DNA from: a virus
Reading direction: 5' to 3' (one strand)
IMG/VR virus record: IMGVR_UViG_3300030202_003916
Coordinates: 1 to 20,149 of that record
DNA length: 20,149 nt
Part shown: positions 4,691-20,149 of the stretch, one piece after another
Layout: each line of letters begins with the position of its first letter
Numbering within the stretch: position 1 is the first letter of the stretch
Notes under the pieces: model-generated
What the model was told of the DNA's origin: nothing
The model's database searches: none
Seen by the model: only the letters and a program-made list of their open reading frames with translations
Translations under genes and position numbers: made by a program

Positions 4691-7600
4691 TTAATCTTCC
4701 TCTCTGATTAGAGAAAACTTGTTTTTGTTTCCACCAGCATATCCTTGTACATTGCCACCTGACATCGAGGACATTTCTACAATCTGGTATTCTTCAATCT
4801 CTTCACCTTCAGCCATGGCTCTTGCCTTAAAACCTTCTACCTGACCTAATCTTTTGTTAGCTGCTTTTCTACTTCTGTAACAGCCATACTTTCTAAGCTT
4901 ACCTTCTTTAGTTTTCTTATTCTTAGAAACAACACAGTATTCTTCTTTACCTTTAGTTTTTCTAACCTTTTCAGTAAGTAATACTATATCTAATGCTTTC
5001 TCAATAGTCTCCAGTATAAACCTAACAGATTCATTCAAAGTATTTAACTCTTCATCTTCAAATTTATTAGAAAGGCTATCATCTACAAGCATTTCGAAGG
5101 TAGCCAACTTATCTGCTGTGGACATCTTTTCAGGCATATGATCGACAGCCTTTGTTAAATCTTGTAAAGTGATGTCTGGATAAGAGTCTACAATCTTTCT
5201 GATTGTTGTAGCACTAACTTTTTCTGTTGTGTCGCAGCCCTCATCTCTACAAACTGGTAATACAAAACCTCTAACTGTTAAAGTCTCAGCATTCTTATTC
5301 ATACCAGCATATTTGTCTAAGCTTTCCTGTGGGTATCTCTTAGAATCTGCTTCAGAGGTTAACAATAAAACATTCTCATTCGGACCAGCTTGATCAACAA
5401 TGTAATCATAAGCTGCTGTGATTGGACTTGGTTTGCTTGAAACCTCGACACTCACAGGTTTTGAGATGTTAGCTGCTGAAATAAACTTTTCGAAAATAGC
5501 TTTTGCTTTTTCAGGTGTAATCTTAGCACTGCGAACATTCTTGCCGGGAGCCGAAATGATTACCTTCACTTCATCAACCTCTGGATTTTTAGCAACTCTT
5601 TCGATAACACTAAGGTGTCCTTTATGTGGTGGCTTAAAAGAGCCGGGAAATAAAGCAATATTTTTAGCTTTAACTTCTTTCTCTGCTTCTGGTTCGCCTG
5701 CTCTAAATGAGGTTGCTTCACCACCTAAGATAAACTCACCAGTAATCTTGGTATCGAAGTCATCGCCGGATAGCCTAATAACGAGCCCCTCGTGCTCTGT
5801 AGCGGGTCCTGAGACCGCAGGGTGGTCTACTACCATGTTATTCATAATAACATTGCCTAAGAGCCTTGTAGCATGCCAAAAAACAGCACCATCAATAGCT
5901 CTTTGGTAATCTTCATCAGAAGCTAATAATTCATCTAATGGGATCTGTCTTTCAGGATCAGCATTGGTATCAGCAGCGGAAGCACCTAGAACAGCCTTGT
6001 AGATCTCTTTACCTTGTGCTGGCGGTGTACGACCATCAACAGTACGGACTTTCTCTTTAATTCTATTCTTAGCTGCTTTAAGTCTATCGCCAAGTGTTTC
6101 TTCTCTGATATCACCAGTTGAGTAAGTCACAGGAACTGGGACATCCATGACAGGGCTGAAATCAAAATCACCAGTTGATGTAGAAGGAATCTCGGAGTAC
6201 ACTTTGAAGCCGTATTTATCAGCTACTTTATTTAATTTTTCTACTAGCCTATCCATAACTTCTTGATCGTAAGCTACAGGAACTGATGGATCTTTAATTG
6301 TCTTGTTAGTCTCTGGATCTATTGGTCTTTCTAAGCCGGGTCTTACTGGCTGACCTTTTCTGTTTTTCTTTTCATAGAACTGATTGATACCATGAATCTT
6401 TAAGAAGTCGTGATCGTAAGCTAAGACATTCGTTGTGCCCTTTACATACTCCATATTAAAGAATTTTGTTGGGTCATCAAGAACACCAAGCTCTTTCAAT
6501 TCAGAAGAGGCTTCTTTTAATGCATCGTTAAAAATACCTAACACATTTTCACCAGCAGGAATCATTCCATGTCCAGCACTGAATCTTTCAGGTAATCTAT
6601 CTGTAGTTATACCTTCAACATCAATAGACTTTCCTGACCCACGATCCATTGCAAACTCTTTGCCTGTTGGAGTATCAATAATCTTAATACTTGTGTTGAC
6701 ACCATCAATTTTAGTGTCAGGCTGTTTGCCACCTTTGATCTCTGAGCCCATTTGTTCAAACTTTTTGATTAGATCTTCGCCAGTTTTGACGTCATCTAAA
6801 TCAAATGGGTGGCGCATATGACCGCCAGCCCCACCTTCGGTGAGCAGTTCTTCAGCAACAATTTCGTATTCTTCTTCAATAATTTCGTTAATGATAGATC
6901 TAAGTCTGGTCATATTCTTTTTATGTTCTTTCAATTTGATATCATTTGCTAAAGCAATTTTACCTAATAAAAAATCAAACTGACTTTTATCTGTTATTGT
7001 GCCATCATTGTTGGCAAAATCACTAGCTATTTTTTGTGGAGGATCTTTAACTAGATCTTCTTTCACCCCTAAAGTCTGAAGGGCATCGTTCATTCCTTTC
7101 ATTTCAGTATCGTCGATGCTAACAATTGCCTTTTCAATAAAATCTTTTAGCTCTGGTGTATAAATTTTATCATTGAAGAGTTTTGTAAATTGTTCTTTGT
7201 TCGCAACAAATTGAGCTTTGCCAAATTCGGTACCCCTCAATAAAATTGCCAATGTGGTGGCAGGCTGCTGCCCTTTGCACCCAACTGTCATTGGGTAGCT
7301 GTCACACTTCTTTGTACCAGTGACGGGTCCTACCACAGTCCCCGGTACTTTATTTAAGGTTGTTTTCCTTATTCTCTTAAGTTCTTTAAAAGTAGGAAAT
7401 TTCATTACAGCTTGTACAAGAGCATAATTTGACTCCAACCATTTATATTTAGCCATGGCTGCCCTTGATACTGGGGCTCTTAATATTTCTTTAATACAAC
7501 CTGTAAACCTTGCAAAATCTGCACCACCGCCAACAACATATTCTTTTTTAGATGCATCATATGTAATGTTACCACTTTCTATATCATGCTTGATTAATGA

Positions 7601-8569
7601 GTTGGCTAATGCCAACATCATGGCAACATCGTTTACATGAAACTGTCCCGGTGTTTGGATATATCCTTTTTTAGCATCTGAAGTCAGCGGTCTTGCTAAT
7701 TTTTGTATGACTGCAAGCGGAGATGAAATGATAGCTGTCGCAGTATGCCCTAGACTAGCAGCCATCTTTTTTTGATATTCTTCTCTTTCAAGCTCGCTGT
7801 CTGTGGACATTAAACGACCATCGCCAATGCCTGGACCTTCGCCGCCTTCATAAACATAACCACCAACGAAATTTTTATTAGGACCGTATTTCTTAACCCT
7901 TCTTACAGTTTTACCATCTTTTCTTTTAAACGGTACTGCTTTGGCACATCTTGTATTTCCACCGTTTCTTCTACATAGCTTGCCTGCACCTTCGCAGTAA
8001 ACTAATAATTCGTTTATAGCAGCTTTTGGATTATTTAAAGCTGCACTAATTCTTTCTTTCGCTTCACCATCTAAATCTTTTGATCCGATCTGATTTAATT
8101 TTTTGCCAAAATAAGCTCCAACACCACCACCTACTCCAGCAGCTAATAGATATAATGCAGCCATGCCGCCTTTCGTCGCAGCAAATCCTAATACTTTTGC
8201 GGTTTTGGGGCTAGATAGAACCTTGTTTAAAAATGCAAATTGGAAAAAACTTAGAAGACCACCTAAGCCAGCCTCGCCGTCACTAATCATACCCATCATT
8301 CTGAATCTCATGAGATCAGTGATCATACTACTTTTCTGTGCAGGGGTGCCTTTTTCAGCAACTTGTTTAACCTCTTGAGGTGTTGGTACTGCCGTATTAC
8401 CTGTTTTAGTTTTTGATCCTGTGCGATTTTTGGCGAGTGTGGGTCTAGCAGGTCTCCGAGGGAATCGCGGTGCTTCTTCCAAGTTGGCTTCTCTGTTAGA
8501 TTCATAAAGCATTGTTAAACTTACTGAATCATCTTCCATTATTTGTTTTAATACTGATAATTTTGACAT
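4691..8569 (-). CDS. 1292-aa fusion: ligase-like AMP-transfer domain + HxGH nucleotidylyltransferase
   Basis: Residues 1-20 (MSKLSVLKQIMEDDSVSLTM) resemble the shared N-terminal helix. Residues ~105-155 hold a Gly/Ala-rich hydrophobic stretch, perhaps membrane-active. Residues 553-578 (MTRLRSIINEIIEEE then AEELLTE) repeat the helix-plus-LLxE pattern internally. Residues ~585-955 look like a covalent nucleotidyltransferase of the DNA/RNA ligase type: KIDGVN at 620-625 (motif I, candidate AMP-linked Lys620), FNMEY at 704-708 (motif III-like), EGLVIR at 927-932 (motif IV), Lys941 (motif V-like). Residues 971-1146 are an HxGH nucleotidylyltransferase: GSFKPPHKGH at 976-985 and SATTIRKIV at 1119-1127, as in NMN or pantetheine-phosphate adenylyltransferases. 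The tail has a small Cys/basic module (YCVVSKNKKTKEGKLRKYGC) and SSMSGGNVQGYAGG. Substrates are unknown; the two enzyme motifs are clear. Confidence 0.8.
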   Translation of the reverse strand: MSKLSVLKQIMEDDSVSLTMLYESNREANLEEAPRFPRRPARPTLAKNRTGSKTKTGNTAVPTPQEVKQVAEKGTPAQKSSMITDLMRFRMMGMISDGEAGLGGLLSFFQFAFLNKVLSSPKTAKVLGFAATKGGMAALYLLAAGVGGGVGAYFGKKLNQIGSKDLDGEAKERISAALNNPKAAINELLVYCEGAGKLCRRNGGNTRCAKAVPFKRKDGKTVRRVKKYGPNKNFVGGYVYEGGEGPGIGDGRLMSTDSELEREEYQKKMAASLGHTATAIISSPLAVIQKLARPLTSDAKKGYIQTPGQFHVNDVAMMLALANSLIKHDIESGNITYDASKKEYVVGGGADFARFTGCIKEILRAPVSRAAMAKYKWLESNYALVQAVMKFPTFKELKRIRKTTLNKVPGTVVGPVTGTKKCDSYPMTVGCKGQQPATTLAILLRGTEFGKAQFVANKEQFTKLFNDKIYTPELKDFIEKAIVSIDDTEMKGMNDALQTLGVKEDLVKDPPQKIASDFANNDGTITDKSQFDFLLGKIALANDIKLKEHKKNMTRLRSIINEIIEEEYEIVAEELLTEGGAGGHMRHPFDLDDVKTGEDLIKKFEQMGSEIKGGKQPDTKIDGVNTSIKIIDTPTGKEFAMDRGSGKSIDVEGITTDRLPERFSAGHGMIPAGENVLGIFNDALKEASSELKELGVLDDPTKFFNMEYVKGTTNVLAYDHDFLKIHGINQFYEKKNRKGQPVRPGLERPIDPETNKTIKDPSVPVAYDQEVMDRLVEKLNKVADKYGFKVYSEIPSTSTGDFDFSPVMDVPVPVTYSTGDIREETLGDRLKAAKNRIKEKVRTVDGRTPPAQGKEIYKAVLGASAADTNADPERQIPLDELLASDEDYQRAIDGAVFWHATRLLGNVIMNNMVVDHPAVSGPATEHEGLVIRLSGDDFDTKITGEFILGGEATSFRAGEPEAEKEVKAKNIALFPGSFKPPHKGHLSVIERVAKNPEVDEVKVIISAPGKNVRSAKITPEKAKAIFEKFISAANISKPVSVEVSSKPSPITAAYDYIVDQAGPNENVLLLTSEADSKRYPQESLDKYAGMNKNAETLTVRGFVLPVCRDEGCDTTEKVSATTIRKIVDSYPDITLQDLTKAVDHMPEKMSTADKLATFEMLVDDSLSNKFEDEELNTLNESVRFILETIEKALDIVLLTEKVRKTKGKEEYCVVSKNKKTKEGKLRKYGCYRSRKAANKRLGQVEGFKARAMAEGEEIEEYQIVEMSSMSGGNVQGYAGGNKNKFSLIREED

Positions 8570-8570
8570 T

Positions 8571-10112
8571 TTAACCGCGCATAGCCTGTGTGATGAATGA
8601 TCTAATTTTTTGTGCTGTCTTCAAACGACTGATTTTGTCGCCTGCAAGATATTCCTCTCTCTTGTCACTTCCCAATTCAGTGCGAATATTGTTCATAACT
8701 TGCCTTCTGACTCTTTTGTACTCTGGGTCTCTCTCATTTTGAGGAACTAATGGGTAATTTGTGACTACCTGCTTAAAGATATTATCTATCTCACTTCCAG
8801 GTCTAGCAAGACGATCGATATCTCCTGCTGGTCCTTTTGGGCTTGCGATTCCTAGCTTCCCTGCCACTGCTGCATCAAGAGCCTTGAGTGTGTTTGGTCC
8901 TGCAACACCGTCGACACCTAGCTTGGCTGCTCTTTGGAATGCCTTAACGGCTCTTTTGGTTCCTGGTCCAAACTTTTTATCAGCAAAGGAATCTACATTA
9001 GATTTAAGTTTGAGAACATTGTGTAATTTTCTTTGCAATACTTCAATATTATCACCACCACAACCCATTCTGAGAATTCCAGTGCATTTTCTATATTTGC
9101 GCGGTCCTTTTGAAGATGCGGCTAATTTTTTACCTTTTGATGTTGCAGCTAATTTTTTAGCTTGAGCAGGGCTTACTTCTTTTCCCTGACTTTTAAACAA
9201 GTCCATAAGTACTTTTGCAGTTTGTTCAATATCACCTAAATCTACTGGTTTTGCCTCTGCTGGTGCAATTGATAGTATTCTAACAATTTCATTTCTCTTT
9301 TTTCTATCAAGAGGTGCTGAGAAGAAAGTATCACTAAGTCCCTTGACAATATCTCCTTTGTAATCATTTGCTGGAGTGTAAACTGGCATAAATCTGCCTT
9401 TCGCGAATCCACCTTTTTGTTTTTTGGTCTTTTTCATTAATATATTCTTTAAATTGTCCAACATACCTTTCTTTTCAGCAGATTTAATTCCTTGAAAGAT
9501 TACAGCTAATTCAAGTTTGCTTAGAACTGTATCATCAGCCTTATCAACAATGAATCTTGCTAATAAATTTAAATCTTCAGCATCCATGATTTTAGATCTG
9601 ACTGGTTCATAAATTTTCCCTAGTGTATCCTGTTCCATTAAAAGACCATTTAGTTTTTTTAGTCTACCCTCTTGCAACTCGCTCATTTTGTGTTTCCTCT
9701 GTTTATAAATATCTTCAAAGTCTCTAAAATGCATAACATTTCCTGAGTTGAAGGCTTCAGTCTCCATATCTCTCATATGCTTGTCTCTTTGAGCATATCC
9801 CAATTTAGTATCGTCTGTACTATCTAAATCTCCACGACAATTCTGAACATGGTGAATTAATTCGTGGGAAATTGATCTTAAAATGTCTTTTAAGTGTCGC
9901 CCTGTAACATAAACAACAACCTTCATTTCTTCTGGACTATAGTAAGCAGTCATACCCAATGGGTTTTTAGCATTTCTTTCATCATCCAAAAGCTCAATGG
10001 TCACAGGTTTATCAAAGTCTAAATTTTTAGATGAATAATTAACAAAACTATCAATTAACTCGTTATTAGAATCATAAATTTTATTTTTTGATTTATCTAC
10101 AACTTTTATCAT
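8571..10112 (-). CDS. HELIH zinc metallopeptidase with peptidoglycan-binding domain
   Basis: The N-terminal domain (1-140) has ISHELIHHVQ at 81-90, a zincin HExxH site (His83, Glu84, His87), and METEAFNSGN at 116-125 supplying a likely third ligand, as in gluzincins. Residues 144-161 (SELQEGRLKKLNGLLMEQ) repeat the shared helix ending in LLME. Residues ~354-412 form a PG_binding_1 module: NIEVLQRKLHNVL, KKFGPGTKRAVKAFQRAA and DGVAGPNTLKAL. A basic linker (317-340) holds two near-repeats of KKLAATSKG. No signal peptide. Together with the SGNH/transglycosylase gene it suggests virion-borne cell-wall or protein processing. The ATG lies on CTACTTATTGTATG without a Shine-Dalgarno; one base separates its stop from the next ATG. 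Confidence 0.78.
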   Translation of the reverse strand: MIKVVDKSKNKIYDSNNELIDSFVNYSSKNLDFDKPVTIELLDDERNAKNPLGMTAYYSPEEMKVVVYVTGRHLKDILRSISHELIHHVQNCRGDLDSTDDTKLGYAQRDKHMRDMETEAFNSGNVMHFRDFEDIYKQRKHKMSELQEGRLKKLNGLLMEQDTLGKIYEPVRSKIMDAEDLNLLARFIVDKADDTVLSKLELAVIFQGIKSAEKKGMLDNLKNILMKKTKKQKGGFAKGRFMPVYTPANDYKGDIVKGLSDTFFSAPLDRKKRNEIVRILSIAPAEAKPVDLGDIEQTAKVLMDLFKSQGKEVSPAQAKKLAATSKGKKLAASSKGPRKYRKCTGILRMGCGGDNIEVLQRKLHNVLKLKSNVDSFADKKFGPGTKRAVKAFQRAAKLGVDGVAGPNTLKALDAAVAGKLGIASPKGPAGDIDRLARPGSEIDNIFKQVVTNYPLVPQNERDPEYKRVRRQVMNNIRTELGSDKREEYLAGDKISRLKTAQKIRSFITQAMRG

Positions 10113-10804: not shown

Positions 10805-11980
10805 TTATTTTTTTCCTTTTTTATTTCCACGATAGCAGTCTTTAATATCCTGTGACTTACAACTTGCTTTTTGTGTGAAGCCCATTTTTTTACAAGGGGT
10901 TTTTCTACAATATGCTGGGGTCGCTCCTCGCTTATCTTCCTTCTCATAAATAGTTTCTTTCTCCACTAAGAACTTACCACGATTGCCTGTATTGGGATCG
11001 ACTGAGCCAGCATAGCCAACATAAGCTATTTTTTTATAAGGTTTTGGACCGGGGAAACGTGTACCATAAATTTCAATATCCCCACCAGCCATTGAAGAGG
11101 TTTCCTCTAAACCACCCGCTGCACCGGGGGGTGCCGATAGATAATTTGGTTTTGGTTGCTTGGTATAAGGCTTCATTTTTTTGTTCTTTTTATGAGGCAT
11201 AAAAGCTTTACCGCCACCTTTTAATCCTAACAGAATTGGGATGTTAATTTTATTAATTTTAATCGACTGTCTTTGATATTTTTCCATCTCATCGAGCGAG
11301 AGTGTTTTATCAATGTTCTTGTTTATAGCAGTTAGAAGCTTTTCTAGAAAGCCGTTGTTCCTCAATTCTTTAAACACTAGGTTTTCAGTTGAGAACTCGC
11401 CACCCTTTTCTAAACCAGCCTTTCTCATATTCATAATTCTTTCTTTAAATTTATCAAGCCTCTCAGCCTTATCATCTAGATCTTCTGTGTTGATGACAAG
11501 CTTTCCTTGATCAATCAACTCTTCAGCCTTTCTACGAATCATATCATCATCGATATCAACATAAACTGGTGTAGGTTTAGTAATCCACTCACCATCTTTA
11601 ACACTATAAACAGCCGTAGAGTAGTGTGGCTCGCTCGCATCTTGTGGATACAACTCTACCTCCCTATCTTTGATTGTAATGTCACGACGGTCATTGTAGA
11701 GGGCTTTCTTGGCTCGCAACATCTTCTTGACTAATTCAATATTATCATCGATATCTTTATAATCTACGATGACATGGAGGTCGATGTCTGATTTCTCGCC
11801 ATAGTGAAAATTTGCCATGCTCCCTGTGAAGGTTACATCTTTAATTGATTCGTTTGGGATATCCAAGTATTCAGCGAAGTGTTTAGCAATATCTAAAAGC
11901 TTCTCACGAATCTCTGGTTTTAAGATCATACCATCCCAGAGTAAAGGGTTTAAAGTTTTGCCAACAGTAATAGAAATCAT
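10805..11980 (-). CDS. Pol-beta-type nucleotidyltransferase with Cys-rich tail, 391 aa
   Basis: The N-terminal domain has FTGSMANFHYGEKSDIDLHV at 51-70, the GSxxN...SDIDLHV motif of the Pol-beta nucleotidyltransferase superfamily, with Asp65 and Asp67 as metal ligands; an acid in KDREVEL (~105-110) may be the third. This domain transfers NMP to a target not evident here. The middle (~190-270) is helical and basic. Near 285-305 is LEETSSMAGGDIEIYG, echoing the tail of the 1292-aa protein (VEMSSMSGGNVQGYAGG). The last ~40 residues are Cys/Lys-rich (TPAYCRKTPCKKMGFTQKA then CKSQDIKDCYRG), possibly metal-binding. The start overlaps the upstream stop by one base. It may be packaged with the neighbouring virion enzymes. 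Confidence 0.72.
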   Translation of the reverse strand: MISITVGKTLNPLLWDGMILKPEIREKLLDIAKHFAEYLDIPNESIKDVTFTGSMANFHYGEKSDIDLHVIVDYKDIDDNIELVKKMLRAKKALYNDRRDITIKDREVELYPQDASEPHYSTAVYSVKDGEWITKPTPVYVDIDDDMIRRKAEELIDQGKLVINTEDLDDKAERLDKFKERIMNMRKAGLEKGGEFSTENLVFKELRNNGFLEKLLTAINKNIDKTLSLDEMEKYQRQSIKINKINIPILLGLKGGGKAFMPHKKNKKMKPYTKQPKPNYLSAPPGAAGGLEETSSMAGGDIEIYGTRFPGPKPYKKIAYVGYAGSVDPNTGNRGKFLVEKETIYEKEDKRGATPAYCRKTPCKKMGFTQKASCKSQDIKDCYRGNKKGKK

Positions 11981-13440
11981 TAGTAACCCTCTTTAAATCC
12001 TTTTCTTCTAGTTCTGCCAGTTATACCATGTTTGTATGTCGCTTTTTTGCCATAAACACTTCTAGCGACTTCTGGTGAGCCATATCGTTTTCTGATATAA
12101 GAAAGCATTCCAACAGCCTCGTTGAATGCATCACCGATGCCTTGTAAACCATCTGGATAATACCTTTTAGCATTTCTAGATAATAGCTGTCCCAGTCCAG
12201 TTGCTGTACTTCTAGTCCAGATTTCACCCTTTCTTAGTCTGTCCCAAATCCCAGCCCATTCATTAGCATTTTTGTTTTTGTGGGACTCACCAAAGGTATA
12301 ATTTGGCTTACCGACGATACCCTTGCTCTCTCTATCTAGAATGTATTGTAGATCATCGGAGGTACCGAACTCTTCTGGCAAGCCTAAATATCTTGCTGCT
12401 TTACCAAAGAGTTCAAGAGCTTCACTGCTACCCGGTTTGAATTGTCTTATTCCAAAAAATTGGTCACTCAAATCTGATGTTGTTTCTTTTTCTACTGACC
12501 TTAAAGTTTCTGGACCAACACAACCATCTGTTCTAATATTGGCATCCTGCTGGAGAGCAAATATATTTGCCAAAGTATTTTCACCAAACTCTCCAAGTTC
12601 GTCTGTGATGTCATAGCCCATGGTTTCAAGTGATTTTTGTAAATCTTCAACTCGTTCACCTTCGGAACCAATCGTTATATATCCAAGCCGACGACAAACT
12701 CTAGATCTGCTAAAAGCATATTTAGCAAGTTGATCAGCATTTAGCTTTGTTAGCTCTGAAGTACTAAGTCGAGCACCAGTAAAAGTTCTGGATGTCTTTG
12801 ATGGTGTAGGAATGTTAACTAGGTCTTGATCAACTTGAGATGCTATAGCACTCGCAAACTTTTCCGCTAGCTCCCCACGAAGGTGAATACCATCCCCAGT
12901 TGTTATAGAACTTGGATCTGATATGAAACTGCGAGGGTCGATGGCTGCTACTCCCATCGATGCGGCTTTATCAGCTATAGCTTGAGCCATCCTGTCTCTT
13001 TTCGCCGCATAATCTTCGCTGTGTGATTCTCTACCAAAGACTTTTTTAATGCTTGCTGGGTTGCCTTTAGTTGCCGGCGGCGCAACACCAAAAATAATTT
13101 GTGGGTTACCATATTTTTGCCTAATAGTATTAATAAGTTCTTCTGTTTTATCCGCACTGAATGTTTCACTTGGGTTGTTGCCACCTGTGAAAACCACTAC
13201 CAAATCTACTGGAGACTTTGGGTTGATCTTTCGTAACCTGCTAATAGTTTTAGCAGTATTTTCACCAGCCTTAAAGTTTCTAACAACTTCATATCCACCT
13301 GACTCCAACTTCTTCTCTAAAGCCCCGCCACTAAAAGCAGTTTGACTATCACCAACTATAACAGCTAATTTTGGTCTATCCTGTTCAGTTAATAACTTGA
13401 GAAATTTATAAGTTAAATTTTCACCCTTCTTATCCCACAT
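11980..13440 (-). CDS. SGNH hydrolase + peptidoglycan-binding + lytic transglycosylase protein
   Basis: Three modules are visible. Residues 23-205 are an SGNH/GDSL hydrolase: IVGDSQT (catalytic Ser32), TGGNN at 85-89, and DGIHLRG with Asp183 and His186. Residues ~255-315 are a PG_binding_1 module (GERVEDLQKSLETMGY and DGCVGPETLRSV). Residues ~362-470 are an SLT-type lysozyme-like domain: LDRESKG with candidate catalytic Glu371, TGLGQLL at 414-420 and ARSVYG. The SLT domain would cut glycan strands; the SGNH domain could remove acyl groups. The N-terminus YKFLKLLTEQ (11-20) matches the shared helix with LLTE. No signal peptide, consistent with virion delivery. One-base overlap with the next gene. 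Probably a tail- or capsid-carried wall-degrading enzyme. Confidence 0.82.
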   Translation of the reverse strand: MWDKKGENLTYKFLKLLTEQDRPKLAVIVGDSQTAFSGGALEKKLESGGYEVVRNFKAGENTAKTISRLRKINPKSPVDLVVVFTGGNNPSETFSADKTEELINTIRQKYGNPQIIFGVAPPATKGNPASIKKVFGRESHSEDYAAKRDRMAQAIADKAASMGVAAIDPRSFISDPSSITTGDGIHLRGELAEKFASAIASQVDQDLVNIPTPSKTSRTFTGARLSTSELTKLNADQLAKYAFSRSRVCRRLGYITIGSEGERVEDLQKSLETMGYDITDELGEFGENTLANIFALQQDANIRTDGCVGPETLRSVEKETTSDLSDQFFGIRQFKPGSSEALELFGKAARYLGLPEEFGTSDDLQYILDRESKGIVGKPNYTFGESHKNKNANEWAGIWDRLRKGEIWTRSTATGLGQLLSRNAKRYYPDGLQGIGDAFNEAVGMLSYIRKRYGSPEVARSVYGKKATYKHGITGRTRRKGFKEGY

Positions 13441-13691
13441 TACTTATTCTTCCTTACTATCTTGATTAGCATGTTGTAAATCTCACGGACAAACTCTTCC
13501 AGCCTATCAACTGAATCTTGAGTCGTGTGAAGGTCAGTTTCAATTCTCTTCATTGGATCTTTAGCTTTTGACTTTCTCTTTGCTGGTCTTCTTAAAGAAA
13601 CAATACGAGGAACATCAATACCAGTTGTTGTAAATTCAACCAGTAGCTCCTCACGAATGATGTTTTCAAGTTTTTTCTTAGTTATCTTCAT
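13440..13691 (-). CDS. small coiled-coil protein with shared N-terminal targeting-like helix, 83 aa
   Basis: Starts MKITKKKLENIIREELLVEF, one of the clearest copies of the shared N-terminal helix, with LLVE at residues 16-19. Then comes a basic linker (RRPAKRKSKAKD) and a C-terminal amphipathic helix DSVDRLEEFVREIYNMLIKI likely to oligomerise. No catalytic motif. The start overlaps the upstream gene's end by 14 bases. Its similarity to the next two small proteins is limited to the N-terminus, so they are not simple duplicates. Confidence 0.65.
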   Translation of the reverse strand: MKITKKKLENIIREELLVEFTTTGIDVPRIVSLRRPAKRKSKAKDPMKRIETDLHTTQDSVDRLEEFVREIYNMLIKIVRKNK

Positions 13692-14073
13692 TTTCCATCA
13701 CAACAACAACAGGGATATCTTTTTCTTCACCATCTGTCTTATACTCGTATTCTAAATAGTGTTTCACTGAGCTTAGGTAATCAGCAGCCTTAGTGATCTT
13801 TGACTGAACCCAGCCCTCTAATTCATCATTATCGCCAATGTTATTCATAATCTCTTGAGCATTTTTAGCGGCTCTGTAGAGTTGAGACTTAGCCATTCTA
13901 CCTTCTTCGTCATGATGGTCCAATTGTCTAACTGGACTTTGATCACCACCAACTGGCTCTGGCATCATAGTCTTCATATCCACTGGCTTCATCTGTGGTG
14001 GCTGAGTTCTGCGCATCATATGACCGCATTCTTCTTCAATGATTTTTATTAGCTCTTCTTTGGTAATTTTCAT
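13678..14073 (-). CDS. hypothetical protein with shared N-terminal helix, 131 aa
   Basis: I choose ATG 14073-14071: GAGGGA lies about eight bases before it, and the protein then begins MKITKEELIKIIEEECGHMM like its neighbours. An in-frame ATG five codons upstream lies inside that ribosome site. The product has a His/Met/Pro-rich segment (HMMRRTQPPQMKPVDMKTM, RQLDHHDEEG), then a helical domain (AKSQLYRAAKNAQEIMNNIG, LEGWVQSKITKAADYLSSVK) resembling small phage proteins of unknown function. Possibly an internal head protein. It overlaps the 83-aa gene. Confidence 0.65.
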   Translation of the reverse strand: MKITKEELIKIIEEECGHMMRRTQPPQMKPVDMKTMMPEPVGGDQSPVRQLDHHDEEGRMAKSQLYRAAKNAQEIMNNIGDNDELEGWVQSKITKAADYLSSVKHYLEYEYKTDGEEKDIPVVVVMENEDN

Positions 14074-14087
14074 TTTATATTCCCTCA

Positions 14088-14390
14088 TTAAAGTCTTGTG
14101 TTAACAAGGTCAATAATAGCTGTAGCTTTCTCTTTTAATTCGCCATCTAGTTCTTTTTCTAAGTCTTCTGCTAGCTCACGAATCTCATCGGCGGCTTTTT
14201 TAGCTTCGTCTTTATCGTCAACTTCTTTTTCCGGTGCCTTACTGCTGGCTCCAGCTTGCTTTGCCAACATCTGAGCAAAAGCATCGTCGTCTCGCTCCAT
14301 ACCAGCCATACCAGAGCGACCTTGCTCTGAGATGATGTTGGCTAATTCTTCACTGATTAATTGTTTTAATTTATCTTTTGTGGTTTTCAT
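14088..14390 (-). CDS. acidic helical protein with shared N-terminal helix, 100 aa
   Basis: Begins MKTTKDKLKQLISEELANII followed by SEQGRSGMAGMERDDD, the shared helix with a candidate cleavage after Glu22 (IISE|Q). The rest is a long charged helix (EIRELAEDLEKELDGELKEK) likely to form a coiled coil. Shine-Dalgarno GAGGAAA precedes the ATG by six bases. Its first four bases overlap the end of the DUF5872-like gene. Small acidic internal or scaffold-like role suspected from composition. Confidence 0.65.
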   Translation of the reverse strand: MKTTKDKLKQLISEELANIISEQGRSGMAGMERDDDAFAQMLAKQAGASSKAPEKEVDDKDEAKKAADEIRELAEDLEKELDGELKEKATAIIDLVNTRL

Positions 14391-14768: not shown

Positions 14769-15194
14769 TTAAAGTACTGAAAGAGCCTTTTTAATCAGCG
14801 GCATTGAATTGTCTGGCATATCATACTCACCAAGCTCCTCAATGGCTACCCAATCATAGCCGTCATGCTCCTCATAAACCTTTTGACTATTAACTTTTCC
14901 TTCAAATTTATTACAGGCGAAGATGTGTACATCTCTGTTATCCGGTGATAAAACTTTCTCTAAAAAAACTAAGTCATCTGCCAGAACTTTAATTCCAGTT
15001 TCCTCTACAGTTTCTCTTACGGCAGCCTCTTCTGGTGTTTCATCTTTTTCTGCACCGCCACCGGTAAATCCCCATAATCCACCATATGGTACATTATCTT
15101 TTCTTTTTAAAAGTAAAACTTTTCCATCGTCAAGATAAATTACTATAGAAGAAAACTGTCGGGTTCTCTTCGATTTTATTTCAATAATCAACAC
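14769..15194 (-). CDS. Nudix hydrolase
   Basis: A complete Nudix box, GGAEKDETPEEAAVRETVEE continuing TGI, fits GX5EX7REUXEEXGU apart from Thr at the first U. It is flanked by LLLKRKDNVPYGGLWGFTGG, the typical lead-in strand, and by VYEEHDGYDWVAIEEL. At 141 residues it is of usual single-domain length. It hydrolyses nucleoside-diphosphate-linked substrates (NTPs, NADH, ADP-ribose or capped RNA; not decidable). The start is GTG 15194-15192, preceded by GGAGA and overlapping the upstream TAG as TAGTG. The N-terminus LIIEIKSKRTR resembles that of the 220-aa protein. Confidence 0.88.
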   Translation of the reverse strand: MLIIEIKSKRTRQFSSIVIYLDDGKVLLLKRKDNVPYGGLWGFTGGGAEKDETPEEAAVRETVEETGIKVLADDLVFLEKVLSPDNRDVHIFACNKFEGKVNSQKVYEEHDGYDWVAIEELGEYDMPDNSMPLIKKALSVL

Positions 15195-15406
15195 TAAGCT
15201 TCTCCATCCGTTGTAACAGTCATTAAACTTTGGTACCTAAGCTTTTCATAAACCTCTTCAAACATTTCTTTGTACTCTGGATTATGAATATTAGATTTTT
15301 CAAATTCATCTAGCAAAAACCATAATGAAGCATTCTCGTCTTCTAATCTTCTCTTTTCTTCCTTGAGCTTTGCGACCTCTTCTTCTAGTTTTTTATGGTA
15401 TTCCAT
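15194..15406 (-). CDS. small coiled-coil protein, 70 aa
   Basis: A 70-residue protein whose first 35 residues are a near-continuous heptad pattern (LEEEVAKLKEEKRRLEDENA), followed by LWFLLDEFEKS and a helical YKEMFEEVYEKLRYQS. Probably a dimeric coiled coil. The start overlaps the lipoprotein protease gene by 14 bases, with GGAGC upstream. The stop overlaps the Nudix GTG. Function unknown. Confidence 0.6.
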   Translation of the reverse strand: MEYHKKLEEEVAKLKEEKRRLEDENASLWFLLDEFEKSNIHNPEYKEMFEEVYEKLRYQSLMTVTTDGEA

Positions 15407-16100
15407 CTTTAATTAGCTCCTTTATTGATTTGAGTGTTGATGCCATAACTAAATTGTTGAAATTTTTAGTTACGGCACTGATAACTCCGATTACTTCACC
15501 ATTTTTGTTCAATACTGGCGATCCAGAGGACCCACCAAAGGCAGGAATTGAAAAAATAGAGCGACCATGGGCTTGTCCACTGTAATGTCCGCTGAATAAA
15601 GGCACCATACCTTTACCAAAAATGTCTCTTGGAGCGGCAATATTATAGACATATTCACCCAATTTTGGGTTCTTTCTTGCTATTTTATACGGTTTTTTCT
15701 TCATTCTTTTAGTAGAAACTAAGCATAAGTCGTTTTCAAAGTCTACTTTCTCGATTTTATAGTTATATTTCTTTAAATTTAAGTCCAAACCATAGAATTT
15801 AACTGTTGCTTTGAACTTTGGAAGGTGAACCAACCTTCCATAATCATCAACACAGACATGTGCTGAGGTCAATAGGTAAGATTTATCCTTTTTATGCCTT
15901 ACAAGGAACGATGAAGCGGTTGAACCATACTTTTTAGTTATACAATGTTCAATATTCTCAGGATTACAGACAGATATTTCAGTTATTTTTTCAATTTTCA
16001 AGAAAGTCCCCTTAAAAAAGGGTAGATTTTGGTAGTTTAACCGATTTGAACAACTACTTAAAATTGAAATTACCGCAATGGTAAAAATAATTCGCCTCAT
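15393..16100 (-). CDS. trypsin-like serine protease lipoprotein
   Basis: The N-terminus MRRIIFTIAVISILSSC is a type II signal peptide with lipobox LSSC (lipidated Cys17). The chymotrypsin-fold triad is readable: LLTSAHVC (His81), DFENDLCLV (Asp124) and FGGSSGSPVLNKNGEVIGV (Ser192 in GSSGSP). There is no PDZ domain, and at 235 residues it is shorter than HtrA/DegP. It should sit in the periplasm or on the outer membrane of the infected cell. Such a phage gene could act on host surface proteins, superinfection or release. The start is ATG 16100-16098 on the ATAGTTATTATATG element without a Shine-Dalgarno. It is nearly back-to-back with the small plus-strand gene. Confidence 0.85.
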   Translation of the reverse strand: MRRIIFTIAVISILSSCSNRLNYQNLPFFKGTFLKIEKITEISVCNPENIEHCITKKYGSTASSFLVRHKKDKSYLLTSAHVCVDDYGRLVHLPKFKATVKFYGLDLNLKKYNYKIEKVDFENDLCLVSTKRMKKKPYKIARKNPKLGEYVYNIAAPRDIFGKGMVPLFSGHYSGQAHGRSIFSIPAFGGSSGSPVLNKNGEVIGVISAVTKNFNNLVMASTLKSIKELIKDGIP

Positions 16101-19353: not shown

Positions 19354-19374
19354 GGTTATACTAGAGGTATGACT

Positions 19375-20149
19375 ATGCGAAAACTATTATTTATTTTATT
19401 AATCCTTGGTGGCTGTTCTAAGGCTCCAACTTATACACCCATTAAGATTGTTGATGCGGGGATATACAATCCCCCGACAGATATTATAAACATTTCAAAG
19501 GACACTGTTGAGGATATTGCCTCAATTCCTGAAGATACAACGGGTACAGTTGATGCACTCGGACCACCACCTGATGTAATTATACAATTTATTGATGCTG
19601 GTGGAGTCGATACTATTCTTCCAGACCCTCCAAAAAAAGATACTTCTTCTGGTCCCCCGGCTGGTGGACCGGATACAAAGGGTGGCTTACCTGACACTGG
19701 AATGTGGCAGCAATGCATAGATAAAGACGGTGACGGCTATGGGCTCGGTTGTATCAAGGGTGGTGATTGCAACGACAACAATCCAAATTTTGCTTCTATT
19801 TGCCCCGACTGTTCAAAACAAAACTGGGAAGGCTGTCCTTGTAAGTCAAACGCAGCAAACTGTTATTCAGGTCAGCCACAGTGGATAGGCAAAGGCATAT
19901 GTCAAGCTGGAGTACAAATCTGTAAATCTGGTTATTGGGGAATGTGTACTGGTGAAAAACTACCTGAACCCGAAGCCTGTGATAGTAAAGACAATAACTG
20001 TAACGGACTTATCGACGAGGGTGTTCTTTCTTCTTGTGGAACTTGTGACCTCTCTTGTATCAAACAAAAAATAGGACCGGACTTCGGTGTACCCTTTGAT
20101 GTTGGTACTAAAAAGGGTCTTAAAATAAATGCTAATGGTTACATAGAGT
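19375..20149 (+). CDS. Cys-rich lipoprotein with DGDGYG and CDxxDNxCNGxIDEG repeats (partial, 3' end beyond window)
   Basis: I start at ATG 19375, where AGAGG lies seven bases upstream; an ATG six bases earlier is too close. The N-terminus MRKLLFILLILGGC is a lipoprotein signal (Cys14). Then comes a ~90-residue Pro/Asp/Thr-rich linker (PPDVIIQFIDAGGVDTILPD), followed by DKDGDGYGLGCIKGGDCNDN (calcium-binding-like Asp repeats), a paired-Cys region (CPDCSKQNWEGCPCKS) and PEACDSKDNNCNGLIDEG. This combination is characteristic of surface proteins of Myxococcota, Bradymonadota and relatives (MopE-like Cys-rich repeats). The remaining 3' end is outside the window. An outer-surface protein is likely; the ligand is unknown. 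Confidence 0.78.
   Translation, partial: MRKLLFILLILGGCSKAPTYTPIKIVDAGIYNPPTDIINISKDTVEDIASIPEDTTGTVDALGPPPDVIIQFIDAGGVDTILPDPPKKDTSSGPPAGGPDTKGGLPDTGMWQQCIDKDGDGYGLGCIKGGDCNDNNPNFASICPDCSKQNWEGCPCKSNAANCYSGQPQWIGKGICQAGVQICKSGYWGMCTGEKLPEPEACDSKDNNCNGLIDEGVLSSCGTCDLSCIKQKIGPDFGVPFDVGTKKGLKINANGYIE

Follow-up and report, generated by a model that had tools for sequence, protein, structure and literature searches.

An RNA-ligase-like nucleotidyltransferase domain joined to an HxGH nucleotidylyltransferase in a probably head-packaged phage protein

The window analyzed here, a stretch of 20,149 bases that makes up an IMG/VR virus record and comes from a phage of bacteria, encodes what is probably a head-packaged, early-acting protein composed of an RNA-ligase-like AMP-transfer domain and an HxGH nucleotidylyltransferase (Table 1). 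Relatives of this protein appear to be packed in the virus head, which suggests that they act in the first moments of infection. We give about even chances to the fuller reading that the window protein is a two-domain enzyme that would be released by a protease, injected, and then seal nucleic-acid ends (likely of RNA) while making a dinucleotide cofactor.

Table 1. Coordinates of the features discussed in the text (window positions unless a relative is named; the arrow marks a predicted cut)
Feature	Position	Strand	Remarks
ORF with all modules, 1,292 aa	4691..8569	minus	
Upstream module, aa 1-552	6914..8569	minus	function unassigned; separate gene in relatives L004/L005
Leader-like segment, aa 553-578, MTRLRSIINEIIEEEYEIVAEELLTE	6836..6913	minus	ends LTE; predicted prohead-protease site LTE↓GG
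RNA-ligase-like covalent nucleotidyltransferase domain, aa 579-958	5696..6835	minus	predicted; GGxxGHMxHPFD family
Motif I KIDGVN, aa 620-625	6695..6712	minus	Lys620, candidate nucleotidylated residue
Motif III FNMEYV, aa 704-709	6443..6460	minus	holds E707
Motif IV EGLVIR, aa 927-932	5774..5791	minus	holds E927
Motif V FDTKITGEF	5732..5758	minus	holds K941
HxGH nucleotidylyltransferase domain, aa 969-1175	5045..5665	minus	PF01467
HxGH motif GSFKPPHKGH, aa 976-985	5615-5644	minus	
HxGH motif SATTIR, aa 1119-1124	5198-5215	minus	
C-terminal tail, aa 1176-1292	4694..5044	minus	with EMSSMSGGNVQG motif
Second LLTE site	4970-4981	minus	inside C-terminal tail
Short adenylosuccinate synthetase, 336 aa	746-1756	minus	conserved in L004, L005, L099
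Protein with HELIHH zincin-like motif and peptidoglycan-binding domain	8571-10112	minus	
Pol-beta-type nucleotidyltransferase gene	10805..11980	minus	homologue of S-CREM2 gp156
SGNH/GDSL hydrolase with peptidoglycan-binding domain	11980-13440	minus	
Three consecutive small genes with K..L..II.EE leaders	13440-13691, 13678-14088, 14088-14390 (span 13440..14390)	minus	
NUDIX hydrolase	14769-15194	minus	near nucleotidyltransferase genes
Trypsin-like serine protease	15393-16100	minus	phage-encoded; PF13365, E 1.3e-11
Cys-rich protein with DGDGYG...DCNDNNP repeats	19369-20148	plus	
DUF6267 (PF19782) examples with ligase-like motifs	L005:6003-8948; L179:2962-4167; L180:2471-3664		

A previous, sequence-only reading of this DNA had described ligase motifs I, III, IV, and V followed by the motifs of an HxGH nucleotidylyltransferase in a single chain encoded at positions 4691-6913. 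All of these motifs were found in this order with invariant catalytic residues, and the predicted folds of both domains agree with the assignment, but the gene is longer than had been thought: The ORF runs on to position 8569, and position 6913 is its internal Met553, precisely where a separate gene begins in the relative L004. Indeed, the three closest relatives (L002-L004) encode the ligase-HxGH protein as a separate gene of 737 aa starting MIDSKVLKLLIEEIINEELLTEGG, which in L004 overlaps the stop of an upstream gene of 834 aa, while no stop separates the upstream module from the ligase-HxGH part in the window. We therefore view aa 1-552 of the window protein as a different gene fused in front, with a boundary at around aa 553; this fusion may be real or an assembly effect. 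The upstream module shares no more than 24-32% identity with its counterparts in relatives, and the ligase part shares 93% identity with that of L004 (88% in the best segment with the whole protein as query). At the other end of the protein, the C-terminal tail has a nearly identical counterpart in L005. There, this locus encodes a 981-aa protein in which a ligase-like domain of another type, DUF6267 (E 1.5e-35), precedes HxGH, so that the ligase-like module differs between the two while the tail is kept. The fusion boundary, the size of the phage family, the predicted prohead-protease site, and the capsid-targeting leaders of the relatives described below all go beyond the sequence-only reading.

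Judged by its motif set and its predicted adenylation-domain fold, the ligase-like domain belongs to the covalent nucleotidyltransferase (ligase/capping) superfamily. Across an alignment of 39 relatives, many of which are only 15-20% identical to the window protein, K620, D622, G623, E707, E927, G928, K941, T943, and G944 are invariant. Besides these residues, N714, Y718, H726, and F946 as well as the N-terminal signature GxxGHMxHP are invariant in alignments of 23 and 39 relatives. Comparison with L004 yielded dN/dS values of 0.046 for the ligase part, 0.079 for the HxGH part, and 0.23 for the tail, and both domains are thus under strong purifying selection. One could imagine that the ligase-like domain has lost catalysis and acts in the head as a module for packaging or scaffolding, given that leaders and LxE sites target its relatives there, but four catalytic residues that stay invariant over so divergent a set of sequences and the low dN/dS of this part make such a role highly improbable. 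A related caveat of the sequence-only reading was that a wide spacing of around 220 residues between motifs III and IV and a single motif V lysine might betray a diverged or inactive ligase. The spacing was estimated correctly, but it is common to the whole family and therefore no sign of decay; both features appear to be constrained family traits, which answers this caveat in part.

Because a structural alignment of the two-domain model covered only the HxGH part, the ligase domain was modelled by itself. The resulting AlphaFold2 model of aa 579-958 (pLDDT 90, pTM 0.86) matches covalent ligases, as the sequence-only reading would have it when it proposed structure prediction as a check: They account for 48 of the 50 PDB matches listed, led by T4 Rnl1 (Z 8.7, 175 residues, rmsd 4.3) and followed by Naegleria RNA ligase (Z 8.1), REL1 (Z 7.3), and T4 Rnl2 (Z 7.0), while DNA ligases rank below these RNA ligases at Z 5.6-6.6. 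Foldseek matches of the domain were weak (best E 0.063, to 1xdn), and sequence profiles compared with PDB sequences reached no ligase, only helical stretches that look like chance matches, so that the remote kinship to ligases is drawn from fold and catalytic residues. No Pfam, PHROG, or NCBIfam model matches the family above threshold, and the RNA ligase model PF09414 hits just 4 of the 23 members compared, with E 0.0078 at best; the hit of L127 scores 14 bits where the cut-off is 27 bits. No C-terminal domain follows motif V, since HxGH begins around 25 residues further on and stand-alone members simply end there. We did not assign the domain to the Rnl1/Rnl2 families for want of a significant profile match and of this C-terminal domain; given that an OB domain is absent as well, sealing activity could have been lost. 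The higher rank of RNA ligases and the missing OB domain lead us to infer RNA rather than DNA as the substrate. The same two observations, with HxGH following so closely after motif V, speak against a role in repairing the phage DNA on entry by sealing its nicks or ends, which we consider distinctly improbable even though DNA ligases do appear among the structural matches.

The second domain carries the GxFxPxHxGH and S-x-T-x-I-R motifs, a predicted Rossmann-like fold, and a match to PF01467, all of which place it in the HxGH nucleotidylyltransferase superfamily. This was the only Pfam match of the window protein (aa 973-1011, 22.1 bits against a cut-off of 21), and among PDB structures PPAT and NaMN adenylyltransferases (NadD) match the HxGH part equally well (Z 10.6-11.0). 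NMNAT-specific NCBIfam models scored 14-27 bits against cut-offs of 112-341 (the best one 27.4 against 240), and with no score above cut-off we did not assign the domain as an NMN/NaMN adenylyltransferase equivalog (NadM, NadR, or NadD). Phages with NAD salvage encode NAPRTase along with NadM (PMC9503650), whereas no NAPRTase gene was found in any of 15 related records, of which the Mel-JY01 genome is complete and the others may be fragments; on this basis we did not assign the protein to the phage NAD-salvage (NadV-NadM) group, and NAD synthesis is possible but disfavored. These results weaken the link to NAD that the sequence-only reading had suggested, including a role against NAD-depleting defense. 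In such a scenario, the HxGH domain would rebuild NAD from NMN early in infection, with the ligase-like domain as a consumer or sensor of adenylate. The fold matches to NaMN/NMN adenylyltransferases and the presence of NMNAT-like proteins in cyanophage virions would suit it, but the missing NAPRTase, the low NMNAT-specific scores, and an equally good match to PPAT leave us to consider it unlikely.

The ligase-like family is large, with at least 486 confirmed relatives in viral contigs detected by our scan, and its members are very common in marine viruses. Few named phage records contain it, i.e., Microcystis phage Mel-JY01 and two uncultured phages; a tblastn search of named phages with the whole protein gave nothing at E 1e-3, and it was a relaxed search that led to Mel-JY01. 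A prokaryote genome collection contributed 5 matches in MAG contigs of possible phage origin. Almost everywhere, the ligase-like domain is fused or adjacent to HxGH. Both domains form one chain in the order of the window protein in L004, L094-L100, and L104 and in reversed order in L101 and Mel-JY01, while 26 of 30 loci with a stand-alone ligase-like gene have an HxGH ORF downstream, usually immediately. Among the other 4 loci, 2 show a PF01467 match just beyond on the same contig and 2 are cut short; L102 and L103 have no adjacent HxGH. By comparison, none of the other candidates that we considered is a constant partner, with canonical RNA ligase (PF09414) in just 3 of 15 related contigs, KptA in none of 15 related records, and a Pol-beta neighbor in 4 of 21 related contigs. 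This near-universal pairing, a minimal domain devoid of known substrate-binding appendages, and the family-specific insert between motifs III and IV would also suit a transferase that couples AMP or the dinucleotide product of the HxGH enzyme to protein, RNA, or a small molecule and seals no ends. However, the nearest folds are those of RNA ligases, and we deem this improbable. An equally long shot is a phage-specific covalent nucleotidyltransferase family, not yet covered by models and abundant in marine T4-like phages, that would be capsid-delivered with HxGH and, as infection begins, cap or tag RNA or protein of the host with the dinucleotide that HxGH makes (or with AMP); if true, this would be chemistry not yet known from phages.

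Our preferred reading of an early-acting, sealing enzyme also covers the way in which these proteins seem to be delivered. In T4, the prohead protease gp21 cleaves behind L/I-X-E; leader residues 4 and 7 are important for targeting, and residues 8 and 10 for processing (PMC9026906). A predicted L/I-X-E site after an N-terminal leader, as in T4-type capsid-targeted internal proteins, is present in the family, and in the window protein the sequence LTE↓GG spans aa 576-580. The residue in front of the GG of the domain is Glu in 77 of 90 distinct members (mostly within [LIV]xE) and Met in 12, being the initiator in about half of these 12. An initiator Met before Gly is normally removed, and both routes would therefore leave an N-terminal Gly-Gly. 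A leader of the form [YF]xxF[LIV]xE with T4-type spacing starts 21 of 22 stand-alone ligase-like proteins compared to 0.14% of random control segments, a pattern that was picked after the sequences had been seen. The window protein's own leader is of another dialect: The segment aa 553-578 resembles a K..L..II.EE type that, likewise as a post hoc pattern, occurs in 4 of 22 window genes (shuffled mean 0.06), including three consecutive small ones. A T4-type prohead protease is encoded in 10 of 21 related contigs including that of L094, and none was found in several of the nearest contigs or in the window itself, a 20-kb fragment.

Virion data from cyanophages concern the partner domain and a neighbor. 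Virions of S-CREM2 hold the cytidylyltransferase gp154, which has the leader MKNFSSFLTE↓A, and mass spectrometry found gp156, a 38.7% homologue of the Pol-beta-type gene of the window, in the same virions. Those of S-SZBM1 hold the cytidylyltransferase _140, whose DUF6267 neighbor is not among the listed virion proteins, and NMNAT-like proteins occur in cyanophage virions (e.g., the NMNAT of S-SCSM1); the authors of such work caution that co-purification is possible. In the mechanism that we propose, the protein would be targeted into the prohead and cut by the phage prohead protease at LLTE↓GG, probably also at LLTE↓K near the tail, to give a ligase-HxGH unit with an N-terminal Gly-Gly that would enter the host along with the DNA. 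The Rnl1-like domain would then take AMP onto Lys620 and seal nucleic-acid ends, most likely of RNA such as tRNA cut by host defense nucleases. With ATP, the HxGH domain would make a dinucleotide-type cofactor, for which NMN-to-NAD conversion is possible but not favored over other substrates.

A second family may combine with HxGH in a similar way. In those T4-like cyanophage records that we examined (P-HM1, MED4-213, and S-SZBM1), DUF6267 is encoded immediately upstream of a gene annotated as cytidyltransferase, and by eye it displays KWDG, GDLLY/GEVLY, PEGxV/EGYV, and KLVDR in ligase order with a similarly wide gap. These motifs raise the possibility that HxGH has a second ligase-like partner family, DUF6267, in cyanophages. 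PF19782 has no match in the window protein, and comparing the profiles of DUF6267 and the GGHM family gave no significant match, so that we make no claim of common ancestry and offer this as a lead only; we found no mention of DUF6267 in the literature as far as it was covered. The L005 protein additionally shows, again by eye, a possible Pol-beta-type nucleotidyltransferase motif (SGDLDIAI) in its N-terminal part before DUF6267 and HxGH.

Other genes of the window deserve brief mention. A short motif, E[EM][ST]SM[AS]GG[ND][VI] or close to it, recurs at the C-terminus of the ligase-HxGH protein, in the Pol-beta-type protein, and in the relatives L094-L104. The adenylosuccinate synthetase scored 122 bits with the PurZ model against a cut-off of 300 and also stayed below cut-off with PurA models; its product may be PurA or PurZ-like (2-aminoadenine DNA). 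The HExxH part of the zincin-like protein is fused to ligase-HxGH in L099 and to NMNAT in Flavobacterium phage immuto, and the L004 relative of the SGNH/GDSL hydrolase also has a transglycosylase (SLT) domain. The repeats of the Cys-rich protein resemble metal-binding proteins of deltaproteobacteria-like hosts, a possible hint at the host.

If our interpretation is true, many marine phage genes labelled as hypothetical or "cytidyltransferase" would encode head-packaged RNA-ligase-like enzymes, and RNA repair or modification could start with the injected DNA instead of after early gene expression. The combination of leader, LxE↓GG, and motif I lysine provides a sequence handle for finding such proteins, and whether the protein is in the head, is cut, and takes up AMP at Lys620 is directly testable on a cultured phage.

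Precedents exist for multi-domain effectors packaged in heads, for RNA ligases of phages, and for NMNAT-like proteins in virions (PMC5512222, PMC7824862, PMC9602691). What appears to be new is a ligase-like family without a model, and neither its capsid-targeting leaders and constant coupling to HxGH nor any description of the ligase-HxGH pair was found in the parts of the literature that were searched. With RNA ligases of the Rnl1 and Rnl2/REL1/Trl1 types, the family shares a predicted nucleotidyltransferase core that gives its best structural matches and motifs I, III, IV, and V in order, but it differs from them by the long III-IV insert, the lack of a C-terminal domain, the GxxGHMxHP N-terminus, the one motif V lysine, the fused or adjacent HxGH, the packaging leader, and the absence of a significant sequence match. 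The phage NMNATs NadM (HxGH-Nudix) and NadR (HxGH-kinase) likewise have an HxGH domain in a bifunctional protein, yet the partner here is a ligase-like domain rather than Nudix or kinase, and no NAPRTase gene was found in related records. Polyvalent proteins and T4 internal head proteins (Alt, IPs) are similar as multi-domain, predicted head-packaged early effectors with a leader and LxE cleavage (PMC5512222, PMC9026906), and the pair of an RNA-ligase-like and an HxGH domain was not found in those parts of their surveys that were covered. The cyanophage "cytidyltransferase" virion proteins (S-SZBM1 _140, S-CREM2 gp154, and S-SCSM1 NMNAT) share the HxGH domain and the location in virions, and the first two also a leader ending xxE↓A; in these phages, however, HxGH is a separate gene, and the upstream DUF6267 neighbor in S-SZBM1 is ligase-like by eye only. 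Mel-JY01 WWT39297, annotated as "cytidylyltransferase like protein", unites both domains in one chain of 639 aa with a ligase part of the same GGHM family, though in reverse order and with 22% identity in this part.
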